Positions 6,939-15,812 of a stretch of DNA of 64,000 bases are shown here, one piece after another. Numbering within the stretch: position 1 is the first letter of the stretch; the number at the start of each line of letters is the position of its first letter. A program made the translations under genes and the position numbers. The notes under the pieces are model-generated. The model ran no database searches. It was not told the DNA's origin and was given only the letters and a program-made list of their open reading frames with translations. The DNA is from Laspinema sp. D2d (GTDB taxonomy: Bacteria; Cyanobacteriota; Cyanobacteriia; Cyanobacteriales; Laspinemataceae): contig NZ_JAMXFC010000038.1 in the NCBI RefSeq assembly GCF_025370755.1, forward strand, positions 1 to 64,000, given 5' to 3'.

Positions 6939-7718
6939 CTAGGCGGGGGGAAAACGGCGATCGCGAACGTCTTCCCCATAAGCCTGCACCGCCTGAGTAA
7001 TCGTCTCTTGCAAATTGGCGTAGCGTTTTGCAAAAGGCGGCACCCGCTCAGTCATACCCAACAAATCATGAGTCACCAATACCTGTCCATCACAGTGCAA
7101 CCCGGCACCAATGCCAATGGTAGGAATCACCAAAGTTTTAGAAATTTCTGCGGCTAATTCACTCGGAATATGCTCCAAAACTACCGCAAAAGCACCGGCT
7201 TCCTGCAAAGCGACTGCCTCCTTAAAAATGCGATCGCTCGTTTCCGGAGTGTTCCCCTGTTTCCGATACCCTAATTGATGCACCGATTGCGGCGTTAATC
7301 CCACATGACCCAACACCGGAATTCCTGCCAACACCAATCGCCGGACAGTTTCAGCAATTTCCGGATATCCCCCCTCCAACTTCACCGCTTGAGCACCTGT
7401 TTCCTTAAGAATTCTTCCCGCCGAATGCATCGCCTGTTGGAAACTTTCTTGATAAGTTAAAAACGGTAAATCCACCACCATCAGAGCTTTTTCAATACCC
7501 CGTCGCACAGCTTTCGCATGATGAATCATCTCATCAAGGGTTAACGGAAGAGTCGTTTCATACCCCAACACCACCATTCCTAATGAATCGCCAACTAACA
7601 GCAAATCCACCCCAGCGCGATCGAGCAATTTCGCCGAGACATAATCATAAGCCGTCAGCGCCACGATCGCCATTCCTTGTTGTTTTCGCTCTAGTAATTG
7701 TTGAGGGGTGATTGGCAT
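6939..7718 (-). CDS. panB: 3-methyl-2-oxobutanoate hydroxymethyltransferase
   Basis: It catalyses the first committed step of pantothenate synthesis: methylene-THF plus 2-oxoisovalerate gives ketopantoate. The 259-residue length is normal. Recognisable blocks are LTAYDY at the N-terminus, the metal-binding [11 protein letters not shown] (about 42-52), GHVGLTPQ, and [10 protein letters not shown]. No other pan gene is adjacent. Confidence 0.95.
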
Positions 7719-8340
7719 AGCTGGGTGGGTTCAAGTCGGTCAATCCGCTGGCAAAAGTAGCAACCGGCAGTCACATCATTATATAGAGATGGATTGCCTT
7801 TCCAATCTTATCAGATCCCTAAGCGCGATCGAGGATTCCCCCTGTCTCTAGGATTCTAGGAACTCCTAACTTACCGGATGTACCAAATACACAAGTTGGC
7901 TGATTAGTCAATAGCCGGTGTTGGGTGGCGAAAAAAATTAGTCACGGGGGAGGACAGGTGGGAGGAGATCGGACGCCAGCCTTGGCCCCACTGATAACGG
8001 CATTGTAAGGGTTTAGAGCAAAAAACTGGGTCAAAATCCAGCAACTTTAGCAACAAGGCAAACTGCTCCACTGAAAATACACCTTACCATAATTTGGCAG
8101 ATTGTCAAAAATTACCCGAAACCCTTGCCACTTCGTTGGGGATGCGGTTGGTGAATTTAGGGGAAAAACTGGGCGAAGTTTGAATTATTGAATATTTTAA
8201 CCGTAAGAATATCAGCCTAGCTTATCAATTTACAACCGACACTGCCAGAGGGACCTTAAAATCCTCGCAGGTTGTTGCTTGCTCCTGTTCTGGCAATTAC
8301 AATAGAATAACCGTAAGCACAAACTGAGGCTAACTGGGTT
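7719..8340. other. 622-nt intergenic region
   Basis: Between divergent panB and the small gene at 8341. I see no open frame with recognisable content, no strong hairpin terminator and no repeat of the families found elsewhere in the window. It may hold promoters for both sides. Confidence 0.4.
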
Positions 8341-8544
8341 ATGCCGGAAATCGTCGAAATTCCCCTAGAACTGACTTACTTTCAACTGCCGCCAGCCGTT
8401 GAAAATCGCTTACATTTTCTGTTAGATCGTCAAGATAATGGCTATCCCCTGTCTTCCGACGAACGACAGGAGGCCGAGGGATTGGTTGAGTTGGTGGAAT
8501 TTTTATCCTTACTACAATTGCGTTCAACGCGAGTGCGCCAGTAG
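8341..8544 (+). CDS. Small uncharacterised protein upstream of an HNH gene
   Basis: A 67-residue acidic, leucine-rich protein starting MPEIVEIPLELTYFQLP, with no motif I recognise. It ends 8 nt before the HNH gene, so the two are probably co-transcribed. An antitoxin or accessory role for the nuclease is conceivable from the arrangement only. Confidence 0.65.
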   Translation: MPEIVEIPLELTYFQLPPAVENRLHFLLDRQDNGYPLSSDERQEAEGLVELVEFLSLLQLRSTRVRQ

Positions 8545-8552
8545 TCATCATT

Positions 8553-8978
8553 ATGACCAAAATTCCTAATGTTCTCCGGCAACTGGTTATTCAACGAGCT
8601 AAGAACCGATGTGAATATTGTGGTCTTTCTCAGTTGGGTCAAGTTGCCACATTTCACATTGATCATGTAATTCCTATTATGGCTGGGGGTGAAACCATCC
8701 CCAAAAATTTAGCCCTGGCTTGTGTTTCTTGTTCGCTTCGCAAAGGCGCACGTCAGGAAATTGAGGATCCTGAAACCCGTGAAATGGTCAGTATTTTTAA
8801 TCCTCGCCAACAACAATGGAATGCTCATTTTACTTGGAATAAAATCGAAGTGATTGGGTTAACAGCAACAGGTCGAGCAACAGTGAAAGCCCTTAATTTA
8901 AATCGGTCAACTCTGTTGGCTATTCGGGCAGAAGAAGAATTGCTAGGACGACATCCACCTCCAGAAGATATACAGTAA
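8553..8978 (+). CDS. HNH endonuclease family protein
   Basis: A 141-residue protein with a full HNH signature: CEYCG at about residues 21-25, HIDHVIP at about 37-43, N after the glycine turn, and CVSCSLRKG. The two CxxC pairs probably bind a structural zinc, and the His-Asp-His part forms the metal-dependent nuclease centre. Standalone HNH proteins occur in mobile elements, defence loci and TA-like pairs. The specific role is unknown. Confidence 0.85.
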   Translation: MTKIPNVLRQLVIQRAKNRCEYCGLSQLGQVATFHIDHVIPIMAGGETIPKNLALACVSCSLRKGARQEIEDPETREMVSIFNPRQQQWNAHFTWNKIEVIGLTATGRATVKALNLNRSTLLAIRAEEELLGRHPPPEDIQ

Positions 8979-9223
8979 CTAGGGATGGATTGCTTCTCAG
9001 TTAGAATAATCACAGCGTTGAGGGCATCGGCATAAAGGTAACACGGAATACTATCGTCAAACTAACCATTGCTGGTTTCCGGGATTAGTTGAAGCGGGAT
9101 AAGGATGTCAAGTTAGGGCAATCCTTGTGGTCAGATTTGCAAACTGTGGAGAAGTAACGGATTAAGGATTTATGCCGAATCTCCTGTGTGTAATCTTATA
9201 ACAATCTCCTCGGTATAATATTA

Positions 9224-9958
9224 TCAGAAATCTAAAGACTGTAAGGATTCGCAAAATACAGAGAACCAGGTAGTATCCCAGTTGTATTCCTGACATAAAT
9301 CCAATAGCTGATCTTCATCGTTTATTCCTCTTTGAGTTATAATTTTATGCGTATCATGATTTACAATAAGACCGTTCCAATATTTATCAGCTATGACGAT
9401 ATGAATACTAGCCTTTCTGATATGCGAAAACTCACTTTTATCCTCAAGTGGCAAATTAGTTAATTCATCATTTTCAATTTTCAGCATTTTAATTCGTGTT
9501 TTTTTGAGTTTTTTCTTAACAGTATTGACGGTTTCCCAATATTCGCATCTAAGTAACTCTGCCTGGTCAGAATCTCTTATGATTTTGTATATTTTCTCTG
9601 AAAAACTCGCGTATCTCCGCCTTAAAAGAGTATTGCCGGTTTGGATTACATCATTCAGTAAACGACAAACTTCAGAGCCTTGAATGTAGGTTTTTCCCCC
9701 GTGGATAACTTTATATTTGTCACTAATTTCTAGCGCAATATAGTTTGCATTATCTTTAGTTGTTCTTAATATATTATGAAGTTCTAACTCGTCAATCCAA
9801 AGCATTCCAAGGCGGTCAATTTTAGCCGCCTTAGACCAAGCATTGTATATGACTTTCATAGGTTGCAAATGTAAATTATATGAATATTGGGATATCTCTT
9901 CAAACTCAATGTTTAAATCAGATGCCGCGTATCGAAAAGGGACAAGTTCTCCTTTCAT
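9224..9958 (-). CDS. Uncharacterised protein paired with a J-like protein
   Basis: A 244-residue protein I do not recognise. It is rich in Lys, Ile and Asn, has a charged central part (about 115-175, with a KKKLKKTR patch) and no membrane segment or signal peptide. The DNA is clearly more AT-rich than neighbouring housekeeping genes, which suggests acquisition. Its start codon lies 2 nt after the stop of the gene at 9961-10419, so the two form a tight operon. Confidence 0.6.
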   Translation of the reverse strand: MKGELVPFRYAASDLNIEFEEISQYSYNLHLQPMKVIYNAWSKAAKIDRLGMLWIDELELHNILRTTKDNANYIALEISDKYKVIHGGKTYIQGSEVCRLLNDVIQTGNTLLRRRYASFSEKIYKIIRDSDQAELLRCEYWETVNTVKKKLKKTRIKMLKIENDELTNLPLEDKSEFSHIRKASIHIVIADKYWNGLIVNHDTHKIITQRGINDEDQLLDLCQEYNWDTTWFSVFCESLQSLDF

Positions 9959-9960
9959 TT

Positions 9961-10419
9961 TTATCTCCTGGTCATTTGTTCATACATTTGAGTGAGTTTT
10001 GTAGATGCTTCTACAGATTCTGGATGCTTACATACATCGGGATGAATAATCTTGGCTAACCCATTTCGCCAGCTTTTAGCTTTTTCTAAATCTCTTGTAT
10101 GGGATTTATTGACGCCAAGTTCTTTAAGTCTTTGCTCTCCATCTAGTCTTAAGAGAGCATAAATAATTCTATCTACTTCCGACTTGAAGTACATCAGATT
10201 TTCATCTGAAATATTGGACGGAGATTCTTCAAATTTTTGGAGTAATCGTCCAGATATTTTGAGTTTACGGATGCTTTGGACTACTTCCCATAAGTCTGCC
10301 CAGCCTCTAGCTTTAAAGTAAATCCGTTCCCCTAAGCTGTTCTTGAGTTCCTCACGGATCTTTCTGTAGGAACCCAATTGCTTTAAATCCTCAAGAGTCT
10401 CAATTTCCAGCCATTCCAT
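9961..10419 (-). CDS. Uncharacterised protein with C-terminal J-domain-like HPD segment
   Basis: A 152-residue soluble helical protein. The C-terminal part (about 112-150) reads WRNGLAKIIHPDVCKHPES followed by a helix, like helices II and III of a DnaJ J-domain with the HPD loop at 126-128. Helix I may be covered by the preceding charged residues. The N-terminal 100 residues are unrecognised. It is the first gene of a two-gene AT-rich operon. A DnaK-partner or scaffold role is only an inference. Confidence 0.6.
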   Translation of the reverse strand: MEWLEIETLEDLKQLGSYRKIREELKNSLGERIYFKARGWADLWEVVQSIRKLKISGRLLQKFEESPSNISDENLMYFKSEVDRIIYALLRLDGEQRLKELGVNKSHTRDLEKAKSWRNGLAKIIHPDVCKHPESVEASTKLTQMYEQMTRR

Positions 10420-10606
10420 TATTGAAAGTACCTTAGTTTAATAGCCAATCCTGCCAGTTACCCCGTAATATAGCAATCCTAAATGATTTGCAACCAAACT
10501 AGCGAGCAAGATGCTCACACTACCAAGGGTCTCAGATTTGGATCCATCACAGAACGGATGTAGGACTGCTATATGGGAAAATTTATAACATACATAGCTA
10601 CTAGCG
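10420..10606. other. Spacer without recognised gene
   Basis: About 190 nt upstream of the J-like operon. It should contain that operon's minus-strand promoter. Nothing else is recognised. Confidence 0.35.
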
Positions 10607-10717
10607 TCAACCTACATCATTATGATAATGGATCCAAGCCCAATCATCTTCTAGTCTGAGTTTTTTGCTGGCTTTCTCTATGACAAATTGATTGAGACCC
10701 GCTATATAAGCCTTTTG
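10607..10717 (-). pseudogene. Possible gene remnant, 36 codons
   Basis: A minus-strand frame opening right after a TGA and reading NQFVIEKASKKLRLEDDWAW before its stop. The composition looks protein-like, but there is no start codon. It borders the truncated higB and may be the tail of a deleted small gene. The family is not recognised. Confidence 0.25.
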
Positions 10718-10722
10718 ATTCA

Positions 10723-10887
10723 GTCATCAACCTTGATGAGCTAAGAATACCCCCCGGCAATCGCTTGGAAGCTCTAGTCGGTAGCCGTAATGGTCAATAC
10801 AGCATCCGGATTAACGAGCAATATCGCATTTGCTTTGTCTGGAGTGAACAGGGTCCTGAAGAGGTTGAAATCGTCGATTATCACTAA
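10723..10887 (+). pseudogene. higB: 5'-truncated HigB/RelE-type toxin
   Basis: The frame encodes about 54 residues matching the C-terminal half of Hig[15 protein letters not shown], then [17 protein letters not shown], ending EIVDYH. The usual N-terminal 35-40 residues are absent, there is no start codon in frame, and a TGA closes the frame upstream. The damaged higA follows 23 nt downstream in the standard higBA order, so the locus is a decayed TA module. Confidence 0.8.
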
Positions 10888-10910
10888 TATCACTCACGGA
10901 GTAATTCATA

Positions 10911-11232
10911 ATGGTTCGCATTCCCACTCATCGCCCCCCTACTCATCCGGGAGAAATGCTTTTAGAAGAGTTTCTGAAACCGCTGGAACTGACACAACGA
11001 GGCTTGGCCGATGCTATTCATGTCCCATATCTATCAACGAGTCAATGAGATTATCAATCGTCGGCGAGGCATCACTCCCAGTACAGCTTTGCGGTTGGCT
11101 AAATTCTTTGATATATCTCCAGATTTTTGGTTAAATCTTCAATTGCGTTGGGATTTATATCATACCCAAGAGCAAGAGCAAGAGATTCTGAATCAAATTT
11201 CTTCTGGGGGCAAGCTGCTAAAATTTGAGTAG
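10911..11232 (+). pseudogene. higA: Frameshifted HigA antitoxin
   Basis: It begins MVRIPTHRPPTHPGEML and has the XRE-type helix-turn-helix start LTQRGLADAIHVPY. It then shifts frame and stops at 11046-11048. The remainder, QRVNEIINRRRGITPSTALR through the C-terminus, is in the next frame to 11232. The cause is visible as a tandem TATC-TATC at 11028-11035. Removing one TATC restores AIHVPY-QRVNEI. The second part could in theory be made from an internal ATG at 11011. Confidence 0.88.
11028..11035 (+). repeat. TATC tandem duplication breaking higA
   Basis: Two adjacent TATC units. One copy is four bases in excess of the reading frame of the HigA family, a typical replication-slippage insertion. 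Confidence 0.75.
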
Positions 11233-11408
11233 TCACATTTTGTGAACCTCAGTATCCACAATTAACCGAAGAGGAGAATCGCCATCCTCTTCGACAGAGA
11301 AAGATTGTCCACCCCTACCAAACCCACCCCAAAACTCATTACCCCAAATCCCAAAATTCGCTACAATATCAGCAAACCCTAGCCTTCCGCTAAAACAGGG
11401 AATCAATT

Positions 11409-11710
11409 GTTAAATTTATTGTTTCTACTCCCCTAGGGTTCACAGTCCGCACCACCGAAAACTACTGGCAAACATTGCTTATCAAACATCCTGATATTAC
11501 CAATTATGAAACAGAAATTCAGCAAACCCTTAATCAACCGGATGCCATTTACCAAAGTCAGCGTGATATTAATGTCTTGCTATTTTATCGCACCCTTAAA
11601 GAAAAAGGTGGCTGGTTGCTGTTGCTCGGCGTTTAGATGGAGAGGGTTACTTGATTACAGCTTACCAAACTGATTCAATCAAAACAGGAGAAAAATTATG
11701 GCCCAAATAA
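11409..11710 (+). pseudogene. Frameshifted RelE/BECR-like toxin homologue
   Basis: The first frame reads STPLGFTVRTTENYWQTL through LLFYRTLKEK, then runs into a stop. The continuation RWLVAVARRLDGEGYLITAY, TDSIKTGEKLW is in another frame. One missing A in the A5 run near 11603 explains the switch. The expected start position has GTT instead of a start codon. Such about 100-residue proteins precede DUF2283 antitoxin-like genes in cyanobacteria and resemble BECR-fold RNases. That family assignment is from memory. Confidence 0.65.
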
Positions 11711-11928
11711 AAGTATTTTATGAACCAGAAACCGAACTTTTAACCATTTTTTGGCAATCTCCCCGCCCCAACCAAATTGCTACGGAACTTGGGAACGATA
11801 TTATCCTTTTCAAAGATGGAGATACCAATGAACCTATTGGCATTGAAGTGTTATCCTATCGCCCTGGAGACGATCGCATTAGTGGCATTTCCCTGGAACT
11901 CGGCCAACAAAACCTAGTTAAAACCTGA
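11698..11928 (+). CDS. DUF2283-type small protein
   Basis: A 76-residue protein starting MAQIKVFYEPETELLTIFW and containing GNDIILFKDGD and PIGIEVLSY, the pattern of DUF2283 proteins. AGGAG lies 8 nt before the ATG. Its start overlaps the end of the broken toxin-like gene by 13 nt, so it is probably the antitoxin partner surviving without an active toxin. Confidence 0.75.
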   Translation: MAQIKVFYEPETELLTIFWQSPRPNQIATELGNDIILFKDGDTNEPIGIEVLSYRPGDDRISGISLELGQQNLVKT

Positions 11929-12020
11929 AAAATCAACTTAGGTAAAATTACCTTTATCACGGACGAACCGCTAGAAGTGCCGTTAACTTTGATGGTTTGC
12001 CTGAGATAGAATAACTTTTG

Positions 12021-12040
12021 AGAAAACCCCCGGGTTTTTC
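12021..12040. terminator. Short bidirectional terminator
   Basis: AAAACCC and GGGTTTTT form a small hairpin with a T-run on the plus side and an A-run on the other. It lies between the convergent DUF2283 gene and the kinase gene. Confidence 0.45.
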
Positions 12041-12060
12041 CCTCAATCATTAAATTTATT

Positions 12061-13872
12061 CTAGCGAAATCCTAGCAGTCTCAACACGGGCATCAGTAAA
12101 TAGTAACTACAACCGAGACAAAAACTGCCGGTCATTCCGAGGAGGGCAAAAAAGGCGATGCTATCCCAAAATTGCGGCATCCCGATTCCGGAGGTGGCGG
12201 AAAATAGGTCTAAAATTAGGGGAAAATATGAACTATAGAGAAAGACGGCCATCACGATCGCAGTCCCGATCGCACTCATCGTCGCATGGAACAGTTGCGG
12301 TTTGGGTAACCCTAACCCTAGGGTTATCGAGGCGATCGCAATTGCCGTAAATCCGACTAAATCAGGGGCAGCTAGGGTCTCACTGGTTGAACTCACCGCT
12401 AATACAAACCATCCTAATCCATACCCAAATACTCCCATCAAGCCAGCGACGATAAATCGTCTTTGTTGTCCAAAACTTCCCGCTTCAGTTAATCCCAAGG
12501 CTGTGCCTAAACCGGCCATTCCAAATAGAATCGCCACTGGATCAACTATCAGTTCCAGATTAGGAAACCATTGTGAGATTAACTCACCTAGGCGGCTGCT
12601 GAGTCGGCTGCCGACGGGTAGCCAATAGGCTAAGGTAAATCCAACTCCGGCACCGACACTCGCACCTAATCCGCCTAAGATAGTTCCTAATAGGGTATCA
12701 AAGCAGGCGGTAAAGGCCCAACTGATTAGATCTAAGGTGGTGATCAGGATGCTTTCTAGGGTTTTGTAACTGACTATGCCGAGGGTGGCGATCGCCTTAA
12801 TCACCAAGGTTCCGACTCCCCAGCAAAATTTGATACTCTGCCTAGATGCCACTGCCGCAAATTCTGCTAAACGGCCACTCAGTCCCAGATTCCGATGGCG
12901 GACTAAGGTTTTTAAATACGAACCTTGTCCCAGTCGTCCTTGGAGTTCTGTTGCACTGGATAATCGTTTGTCAACCTGAAACTCCAGCATTTCATCGATG
13001 ACATTAGCCAGATTTAGGCTAACTCTGGCGTGAGGATGCCAGCGACATTCTCCGGACATTCCATCATCAAAGTCTGCTGGCGATCGCCCGGTTAGCAGAA
13101 AAATTGCCGTTCGTCCCAAGGCATAAAAATCCGCTGCCGGTCCCACAGAAGCCCCCATCATCTGTTCTGGAGGACTGTAACCTGGAGAGAACAGCCTCGT
13201 GGAACTCGCCTGTTTCCCGCTGAGTTGTTTCACCCCGCCAAAATCGATCGCCACCAGTTGACCCGCTGCACTTCCCCCCATCCTTCTATTAAATAAGGAG
13301 AATGGAGTACCCGTATTTGTCGGAGTCGCTGCCATGCGGACCATTAAATTGGTGGGTTTGAGGTCCCGGTGAATAATTGAATGGCGGTGCAATTCTTCCA
13401 AAATATCTGCCGCCTGCATCAACCAATCCACTACCAATGCCTCGGGAAATCCTTGAGGATAATCGCGATGCAGCATTTCATCCAAGGTAAACCCCTCGAT
13501 TTTTTCCATGATGAGACAAGGCAGGGTTTGGGGTTGGGGATGTTTGAGGGAAACGTGAAAATAACCATCGCGATCGACCTTGGGAATTCCCGGATGGGTC
13601 AGACTTGCTAAAACTGCTGCCTCTTGTTCAAAGAGTTCTAAGGCTTTAGGCGATCGCTCGTTTAACACCTTCAAGACTCGTTCCCGGTCCGTCTGTCGAT
13701 CATAAACGGTGAAAGTGACGGCAAAGCCGCCGGTCCCTAATTTTTGTAAAGGAAGATAACGCCCATTTAAAATCAGAGGGGTTCCACAACTGTCACAAAA
13801 GTGATGACTCGGACTTTGGGCGGTGGGACTTGGACAATTTGGGTTGATGCAGTGGAGGAAAGCTGGCTGCAT
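12061..13872 (-). CDS. Membrane-anchored Ser/Thr protein kinase with N-terminal zinc ribbon
   Basis: A 603-residue Hanks-type kinase. The N-terminus carries two Cys pairs (CINPNC and CDSC, about 8-31), likely a zinc ribbon. The kinase domain (about 38-325) has GTGGFAVTF, VLKVL, HRDLKPTNLM (catalytic loop), DFGG and SPPEQM. The C-terminal 240 residues contain about six hydrophobic segments and are predicted to be in the membrane. The signal sensed is unknown. The gene is convergent with the decayed TA region and divergent from rbcL. Confidence 0.88.
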   Translation of the reverse strand: MQPAFLHCINPNCPSPTAQSPSHHFCDSCGTPLILNGRYLPLQKLGTGGFAVTFTVYDRQTDRERVLKVLNERSPKALELFEQEAAVLASLTHPGIPKVDRDGYFHVSLKHPQPQTLPCLIMEKIEGFTLDEMLHRDYPQGFPEALVVDWLMQAADILEELHRHSIIHRDLKPTNLMVRMAATPTNTGTPFSLFNRRMGGSAAGQLVAIDFGGVKQLSGKQASSTRLFSPGYSPPEQMMGASVGPAADFYALGRTAIFLLTGRSPADFDDGMSGECRWHPHARVSLNLANVIDEMLEFQVDKRLSSATELQGRLGQGSYLKTLVRHRNLGLSGRLAEFAAVASRQSIKFCWGVGTLVIKAIATLGIVSYKTLESILITTLDLISWAFTACFDTLLGTILGGLGASVGAGVGFTLAYWLPVGSRLSSRLGELISQWFPNLELIVDPVAILFGMAGLGTALGLTEAGSFGQQRRFIVAGLMGVFGYGLGWFVLAVSSTSETLAAPDLVGFTAIAIASITLGLGLPKPQLFHATMSAIGTAIVMAVFLYSSYFPLILDLFSATSGIGMPQFWDSIAFFALLGMTGSFCLGCSYYLLMPVLRLLGFR

Positions 13873-14381: not shown

Positions 14382-15812
14382 ATGTCTTACAGTTCAACCC
14401 AGACTCAAGCAAAAACCGGCTACCAAGCTGGCGTTAAAGATTATAGACTGACTTACTACACGCCGGACTACACTCCCAAAGATACCGATGTCTTGGCGGC
14501 ATTCCGGATGACCCCTCAGCCTGGAGTTCCCCCCGAAGAAGCAGGAGCTGCCGTAGCTGCTGAATCTTCTACCGGAACCTGGACCACTGTCTGGACCGAC
14601 CTTTTGACCGACTTGGATCGGTACAAAGGCCGTTGCTACGACATCGAAGCGGTACCCAACGAAGAGAACCAGTACATCGCTTACGTTGCCTACCCCCTCG
14701 ACTTGTTTGAAGAAGGCTCCGTCACCAATATGCTGACCTCCATCGTGGGGAACGTGTTTGGTTTCAAAGCCCTGCGCGCACTCCGCTTGGAAGATATGCG
14801 GATTCCCGTTGCCTACCTGAAGACCTTCCAAGGTCCTCCCCACGGCATCCAAGTTGAGCGCGACAAACTCAACAAATATGGTCGTCCCATGCTGGGTTGC
14901 ACGATCAAACCGAAACTCGGTTTATCTGCGAAGAACTACGGTCGTGCAGTATATGAATGCTTGCGCGGTGGTTTGGACTTCACCAAAGACGACGAAAACA
15001 TCAACTCCCAGCCGTTCCAACGGTGGCGCGATCGCTTCTTGTTCGTTGCTGACGCTATCCATAAAGCTCAGGCAGAAACTGGCGAAATCAAGGGCCACTA
15101 CCTCAACGTAACCGCCCCCACCTGCGAAGAAATGCTGAAACGGGCTGAGTTCGCCAAAGAACTCAAAATGCCCATCATCATGCATGACTTCTTAACCGCA
15201 GGGTTCACCGCCAACACCACCTTGGCTCACTGGTGCCGCGATAACGGAATCCTGTTGCACATCCACCGTGCTATGCACGCCGTTATCGACCGTCAGAAAA
15301 ATCATGGTATCCACTTCCGTCTGCTTGCCAAGTGCTTGCGGATGTCCGGTGGTGACCACATCCACACCGGAACCGTTGTGGGTAAACTCGAAGGCGAACG
15401 CGGTATCACGATGGGCTTCGTCGATCTGCTCCGCGAAAACTATATCGAACAAGATAAATCTCGTGGGATTTACTTCACCCAAGACTGGGCATCTATGCCT
15501 GGGGTGATGGCTGTTGCTTCCGGTGGTATCCACGTATGGCATATGCCCGCACTCGTGGAAATCTTCGGTGACGACTCCGTGCTGCAGTTTGGTGGTGGGA
15601 CCTTGGGTCACCCCTGGGGTAATGCTCCCGGTGCAACCGCCAACCGTGTTGCTTTGGAAGCCTGTATCCAAGCTCGTAACGAAGGCCGTAACCTGGCTCG
15701 TGAAGGAAATGATATCCTTCGTGAAGCTGGACGCTGGTCTCCTGAGTTGGCTGTCGCTCTTGACCTCTGGAAAGAAATCAAATTTGAGTTCGAGGCGATG
15801 GATACCGTCTGA
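14382..15812 (+). CDS. rbcL: Ribulose bisphosphate carboxylase large chain
   Basis: It fixes CO2 onto ribulose-1,5-bisphosphate in the carboxysome. At 476 residues it is form IB, as in cyanobacteria. Visible motifs are the [10 protein letters not shown] active site with the carbamylated Lys at about 202, the N-terminal substrate segment [22 protein letters not shown], and loop 6 in [10 protein letters not shown]. It is the first gene of rbcL-rbcX-rbcS and is probably highly expressed, given the clean codon usage and strong ribosome binding site. Confidence 0.99.

Follow-up and report, generated by a model that had tools for sequence, protein, structure and literature searches.

Two adjacent genes at positions 9224-10419 of the window, the 64,000-nt stretch of the Laspinema sp. 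D2d genome analyzed here, belong to a real, rare and mobile two-gene module that couples a J-domain protein to a predicted HNH-type nuclease. Our leading interpretation, drawn from sequences and structural models and given nearly an even chance, is that the pair may act as a conflict module of the toxin-antitoxin (TA) or defense kind, in which the nuclease would be the effector and the J-domain protein its dedicated keeper. The features on which the analysis rests are as follows.

9961-10419, minus strand: gene 1 (P0001), a 152-aa J-domain protein, from its ORF and from homologues that immediately precede the nuclease gene at nine further loci
9224-9958, minus strand: gene 2 (P0002), a 244-aa HNH-family protein, from its ORF, the family alignment and a model (pLDDT 84.3)
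10237-10419, minus strand: gene 1 N-terminal domain (about residues 1-61), from an HMM of six pair proteins
9964-10188, minus strand: gene 1 J-domain (residues 78-152), from phrog_17986, hhalign, the model and VIA
10036-10044, minus strand: gene 1 HPD (residues 126-128), from sequence and model, in the loop joining helices II and III
9629-9811, minus strand: gene 2 HTH-like region (residues 50-110), weakly like MerR and BldC (VIA Z 2.6-4.2)
9329-9481, minus strand: predicted gene 2 HNH beta-beta-alpha-metal core (residues 160-210, with H179, N200 and H204), from the family alignment and VIA
8553-8978: HNH gene beside the pair, its protein matching PtuB profiles (PADLOC E 2.4e-12), conserved in the relative G438
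9063-9199: interspersed repeat at the downstream border of the pair, with matches at several unrelated sites in same-genus genomes
10465-10574 and 10611-10709: two interspersed-repeat segments at the upstream border of the pair, with many copies in same-genus genomes

Inspection of the ORF list places both genes on the minus strand with a gap of 2 nt, encoding 152 and 244 residues as described in the initial annotation. Its description of the pair as AT-rich also holds (35.8% GC versus 46.3% for the window), but the pair is not unique in this respect, because 9 of 1257 equal-length sliding windows have a GC content at or below that of the pair, some of them elsewhere, at 35.9 kb and 43.6 kb. 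Promoter-like sites around the pair occur at chance frequency, with 6 found and 6.1 expected. The upstream repeat (10465-10574 and 10611-10709) is MITE-like, with inverted arms at 10538-10564/10611-10637. Farther along the window, an rbcL-like ORF lies at 14382-15812, from which the host reads as a cyanobacterium.

The C-terminus of gene 1, first read as an HPD motif in a J-domain-like context, is by profile and model a genuine J-domain fold, for which the sequence evidence is weak singly and strong as a profile. P0001 matches DnaJ at E 0.055 in Pfam, below the cut-off and no stronger than an unrelated polymerase-thumb profile, and at E 0.058 in NCBIfam; its 14 bits miss the PF00226 gathering score of 27.8, the best family member reaching 24.7. 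Members of the pair and J-like families match Pfam DnaJ at E 2.5e-5, 2.7e-4, 0.0016 and 0.0022, none above the cut-off, and the HPD-less members L007, L009, L014 and L015 give no Pfam DnaJ match at E<=1. In contrast, an 11-sequence J-like profile compared with ten host J-domains yields an hhalign probability of 94.6% (E 6.8e-8), and its weak PDB sequence matches are mostly J-domains (best E 0.0093). The same 77-aa J-like domain defines phrog_17986, an unnamed phage family of unknown function, which matches P0001 residues 76-151 at 5.2e-14 and the Acetoanaerobium member at 1.5e-22; the Fusobacterium members opened differ in standing alone with no nuclease and mostly without HPD.

Structural modeling leads to the same fold. 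An AlphaFold model of P0001, generated from 7 sequences with a mean pLDDT of 77.5 (about 92 for residues 111-150), places the HPD of the window copy in a loop between helices 111-125 and 135-150. VIA superposes this model on the RabJ J-domain (2ys8) with Z 9.7 and an rmsd of 2.3 Å over 71 aligned residues, and on a DnaK-bound J-domain (5nro) with Z 6.5, while many further J-domains fall at Z 4-6, a range that unrelated helical folds also reach. Foldseek E-values are weak (best 0.13), and the best 20 rows are nearly all J-domain entries. VIA barely covered residues 1-74, such that the fold evidence describes the C-terminal J-domain part. An ordinary HSP40 role is not favored, since 10 J-domain matches above the Pfam cut-off already occur in the host. 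Three long open frames of Cyanobacteria that P0001 matched were regarded as ordinary DnaJ and left out of the count of relatives.

Gene 2, initially called unrecognized, can now be assigned to a divergent HNH-type nuclease family with a predicted beta-beta-alpha-metal core. Neither Pfam nor NCBIfam, curated HNH profiles included, gives P0002 a match above cut-off. H179, N200 and H204 are invariant in all ten members of the family alignment, and the P0002 model presents a strand-strand-helix arrangement at these residues (strands 176-179 and 196-199, helix 201-209). HNH nucleases head the VIA list, namely GVE2 HNH (5h0m, Z 7.7) and EcoKMcrA (6ghc, Z 6.6), followed by Cas9 HNH (8d2k, Z 6.3), CBASS Cap5 (Z 5.5) and VcaM4I (Z 5.5). 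Colicin E7 DNase accounts for five of the seven weak sequence matches of the family (E 0.18-0.43), and the member on a K. pneumoniae plasmid (L007) matches phrog HNH families weakly (9e-4 and 0.0019). Because no VIA row reaches Z 8 and no Foldseek E falls below 0.47, the HNH assignment draws jointly on the fold, on where the H/N/H residues lie and on the weak matches to colicin E7. Among PADLOC-DB 2.0.0 system core genes, P0001 has no match and P0002 matches only PDC-S02 (E 0.004), a likeness that was dropped as it spans just 39 residues; none of 10 related proteins matched at E<=1.

Two further positions distinguish the window copy. The residue before H179 is Ser (S178) in the window and L017, with 8 of 10 members reading HH there, and the residue four after H204 is Thr (T208) in the window, L017 and L031, with His in 7 of 10 (in L028 after an insertion). 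Both bear on whether the family has the full metal-binding set of colicin-type HNH nucleases, the Thr standing where the second metal-ligand-type His would be. With S178 and T208, catalysis by the window copy is thus not assured, and its nuclease may be weak or inactive. Toward the N-terminus, VIA relates residues 50-110 to DdrC, MerR-type regulators, BldC and CbpM at Z 2.6-4.2, below the reliable range, with CbpM (3ucs_B) at Z 3.1, an rmsd of 4.3 and 62 aligned residues. These values are suggestive of a weakly MerR-like HTH and serve as a lead only.

An ordered pair was found in ten loci, that is, the window and nine more: Acetoanaerobium (L006), plasmids of K. pneumoniae (L007) and K. oxytoca (L009), an IMG/VR contig (L013), an Alcanivorax MAG (L014), Vibrio owensii (L015), and the genomes G416, G825 and G885. 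These span Bacillota, Gammaproteobacteria, another cyanobacterium of the same order as the host (G416), and plasmid or viral contigs. In 10 of 10 pairs the J gene immediately precedes the nuclease gene, at spacings from a 53-nt gap to a 38-nt overlap that depend on the ORF starts used; judged by order and spacing, all ten have the small two-gene arrangement of type II-like TA systems, in which a putative antitoxin gene comes first. Pairwise distances of the two proteins correlate across the 10 pairs (Mantel r 0.83, p 1.5e-4) and continue to do so without the close relatives L014 and L015 (r 0.55, p 0.0015). This correlated divergence shows that the proteins travel together and says nothing of binding. 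The GC content of the pair is 34.2-40.5% in all ten, with the rest of the loci at 33.7-55.4%.

The module is nonetheless rare. Setting aside the genome on which each search was centred, HNH matches turned up in 1 of 242, 1 of 298 and 1 of 246 genomes, and in every case gene 1 lay upstream. The pair first surfaced by tblastn of plasmids and then through profiles; the P0002 tblastn also gave Rhizobium 6-carboxytetrahydropterin synthase matches at E 0.009-0.06. Single-protein searches found no relatives of P0002 in genome contigs, viral contigs or phages and none of P0001 in viral contigs, distant blastn of one pair matched no E. coli genome, and the peptide-pattern scans A3, A10 and A11 added 3, 0 and 0 new loci. 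For eight loci first found via gene 2, the profile detects a J partner in six, and it detects none for the distant HNH relatives L033 and L034. At L033 (4516-5630), on Vibrio/Photobacterium conjugative plasmids, the HNH relative overlaps a 115-aa gene that appears J-like by eye but is missed by the J profile, and the locus was not accepted as a pair; at L034 (4028-5675), in Cupriavidus, the relative directly follows a RES family gene with no J-domain gene. For eight loci opened after gene 1 J-domain matches, the nuclease is present in three and absent in five, the latter being Fusobacterium L008, L010 and L024-L026. These plasmids and phages encode stand-alone, mostly HPD-less J-like proteins of the phrog_17986 type (L008 7983-8522; L010 500-736; L024-L026).

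The recurrence of the pair in nine other loci bears on whether the J-domain works through Hsp70, as the initial annotation had tentatively suggested in naming DnaK. No more than 5 of the 10 pairs retain an intact HPD (the window, L006, L013, L017 and L028); the motif reads HSD in the related L009, L014 and L015 and RED in L007, and is lost in L031, such that it has been lost or altered in at least three sequence lineages. In contrast, H/N/H is kept in 10 of 10, which argues that the nuclease is the constrained function and that DnaK stimulation is not. Comparison across the family therefore suggests that canonical Hsp70 stimulation is dispensable for the shared function, with the J fold kept regardless. 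The proposal of DnaK use thus finds no support as a general rule, while the intact HPD of the window copy fits a DnaK role at least there.

A working Hsp70 co-chaperone would nevertheless explain part of these data. The J-protein could recruit host DnaK to fold, hold or activate the nuclease, or it could sense chaperone load during infection, with the nuclease triggered once phage proteins tie up the chaperones, amounting to a self-encoded form of the DnaJ dependence of bNACHT25. The five pairs with intact HPD, the one member that reads HPDKGGDE and reaches Pfam DnaJ at E 2.5e-5, and the superposition on DnaK-bound 5nro are consistent with such a role. There is also a precedent, as bNACHT25 is reported to require host DnaJ, including H33 and D35 (PMC12169576); this likewise links a J-domain chaperone to phage defense, but through host DnaJ and with a NACHT protein, not a gene 2 nuclease, as effector. 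Given that half of the pairs, in at least three lineages, and the solo relatives L010 and L024 do without HPD, we regard the co-chaperone reading as unlikely, though worth keeping in view.

The N-terminal domain of gene 1 connects the pair to TA systems. The HMM from six pairs also finds small proteins upstream of Fic genes on Proteus and Klebsiella plasmids, with E 1.3e-8 and 1.5e-7 among 4945 ORFs against 0.31 for the best reversed-sequence control, and leave-one-out analysis recovers 5 of 6 members (L006 missed, E 0.12). In the Proteus and Klebsiella plasmids the N-domain protein is followed by the Fic gene at L011 953-1859 and L012 2468-3377; the Fic-associated protein is present in 28 plasmid records, 2 of which were opened, and is possibly an undescribed Fic partner. 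The N-domain is absent in L009, L014 and L015 and was not detected in L031, which makes it optional and the J-domain the constant part. In G416, a BrnT toxin gene (Pfam E 1.1e-28) shares an overlap with the gene 1 ORF, and the extra N-terminus of the G416 protein may be the BrnT antitoxin, which it resembles.

The domain in common with a Fic partner and the overlap with BrnT speak for a TA-like logic, which weighs against reading gene 2 as a restriction-like, possibly modification-dependent nuclease that cuts foreign DNA as McrA-type HNH enzymes do, with the J-protein as a DNA-binding or specificity cofactor and not an inhibitor. The combination of an HTH-like region with HNH, the structural neighbors EcoKMcrA (Z 6.6) and VcaM4I (Z 5.5), and the fact that no methyltransferase gene was noticed beside the window pair would suit that role, yet the McrA-type structural matches are confined to the HNH domain, and we hold it to be rather improbable.

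The setting of the pair was next compared among relatives. Gene 2 has no match in any of 7 same-genus genomes searched (two of them 87% and 92% complete) and the pair occurs in distant phyla, which bears out the original view of an acquired module. Of the two outcomes that would have contradicted the initial annotation, a predicted structure lacking J-domain similarity and genes never seen together elsewhere, neither was obtained. In five same-genus genomes opened, the panB-side flank is conserved up to 8.23-9.07 kb, and the HigBA-side flank is conserved from 10.7-10.9 kb in four of the five. ORFs were listed for three of the five, where the same site carries a 552-aa protein without family match (G438), GmrSD_N-AlbA and PIN genes with RelBE-like genes (G449), or RelBE-like genes (G493). 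The window locus (8400-10800; compare L057, L058 and L060) is thus a variable hotspot of TA and defense cargo between panB/HNH and HigBA. The HNH gene and broken TA genes reported beside the pair do adjoin it, the latter being a HigB remnant that lacks the 5' half and a HigA with a frameshift, both of which are intact in relatives. The names HigB/HigA (HigBA) and RelBE-like for TA genes around the locus are those we take to apply. A 67-aa ORF and the neighboring HNH gene together span 8341-8978.

Elsewhere, the pair has PADLOC-listed candidates or TA genes nearby, with FRG PDC-S15 and a GajB-like (UvrD/GajB-like) helicase in L007, a RES gene in L006, and KAP PDC-S49 and an integrase in G885 (L032), where an integrase, the pair and a KAP NTPase (a PDC-S49 candidate) lie close together at 7086-12302 in what is possibly a small mobile island. 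The distant L033 adjoins SIR2 PDC-S25. Decay or chance adjacency, with no function left in this genome, would agree with the broken TA genes beside the pair and the non-canonical metal-ligand positions of the window copy, but is very improbable given that both ORFs are intact and both families recur as an ordered pair in ten loci.

We therefore return to the J-domain protein as keeper of the nuclease. Gene 2 would be the effector, its N-terminal HTH-like part probably placing the predicted nuclease on DNA. Gene 1, made first from what would be the same co-transcribed operon, would be its dedicated partner, the J-domain serving mainly as a protein-binding module that contacts the nuclease directly and keeps it inactive in the manner of an antitoxin or immunity protein. 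Release could follow once the gene 1 protein disappears through infection, stress or loss of the module, and the optional N-domain would add regulation or contact. This reading accounts for the gene order, the constraint on H/N/H and not on HPD, the domain common to the Fic partner and the setting, and draws directly on pair conservation, the J fold, the HNH fold and its conserved residues, mobility and the TA/defense surroundings. Counted against it are the non-canonical residues of the window copy, an HTH below reliable Z, J-like proteins without a nuclease, the two HNH relatives without a J partner (L033 and L034) and the intact HPD in the window. Of the defense or stress unit first envisaged, the defense part agrees with the setting; the identification of gene 2 as an HNH-type nuclease shifts the likely meaning away from a stress or chaperone unit and toward an effector with a dedicated J-domain partner.

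Comparison with known systems reveals partial likenesses. McrA-type and CBASS Cap5 effectors are defense nucleases with an HNH domain of the gene 2 fold, but their N-terminal parts are other than that of gene 2. To our knowledge, neither has a J-domain partner. TAC systems also encode a chaperone-type protein alongside a toxin and tie it to toxin control (PMC6377645). They comprise three genes, with a SecB-like chaperone acting on the antitoxin, whereas the present module has two genes and its J-protein is the proposed partner. The J-domain/HNH pair was not found described in the available text of open-licence PMC literature on J-domains, HNH, toxin-antitoxin and phage defense, including PMC7824862 and PMC3710099, and no described system matching it was found within the profile databases and literature searched.

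The closest parallel for a J-HTH contact is that of CbpA and CbpM: the MerR-like HTH protein CbpM binds the J-domain of CbpA, chiefly through helix 2 and the loop bearing HPD, in competition with DnaK (PMC4063869). Here too a J-domain protein has a partner, one with a putative HTH-like part, but CbpM lacks a nuclease and acts as inhibitor of the J-protein, whereas here the HTH-like part is fused to HNH and the J-protein is the proposed inhibitor; the gene 2-CbpM match (Z 3.1) is suggestive and too weak for a claim of homology. By analogy, the J-domain antitoxin might lock the HTH-HNH nuclease through a CbpA/CbpM-like interface. Since this interface covers part of the surface that contacts DnaK, the nuclease of HPD-bearing members could be set free when Hsp70, or a phage interfering with chaperones, vies for the J-domain, and the module would serve as a self-encoded sensor of chaperone load; HPD-less members would have turned to some other trigger. 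We consider this elaboration doubtful.

Were the keeper interpretation to hold, the J-domain/HNH pair would join the list of two-gene conflict systems, and its HPD-less members would provide naturally occurring J-domains with which to probe a non-Hsp70 role of the fold. If the J-domain is in addition a release switch, chaperone occupancy would be tied directly to a nuclease effector, allowing many phages to be sensed at once.
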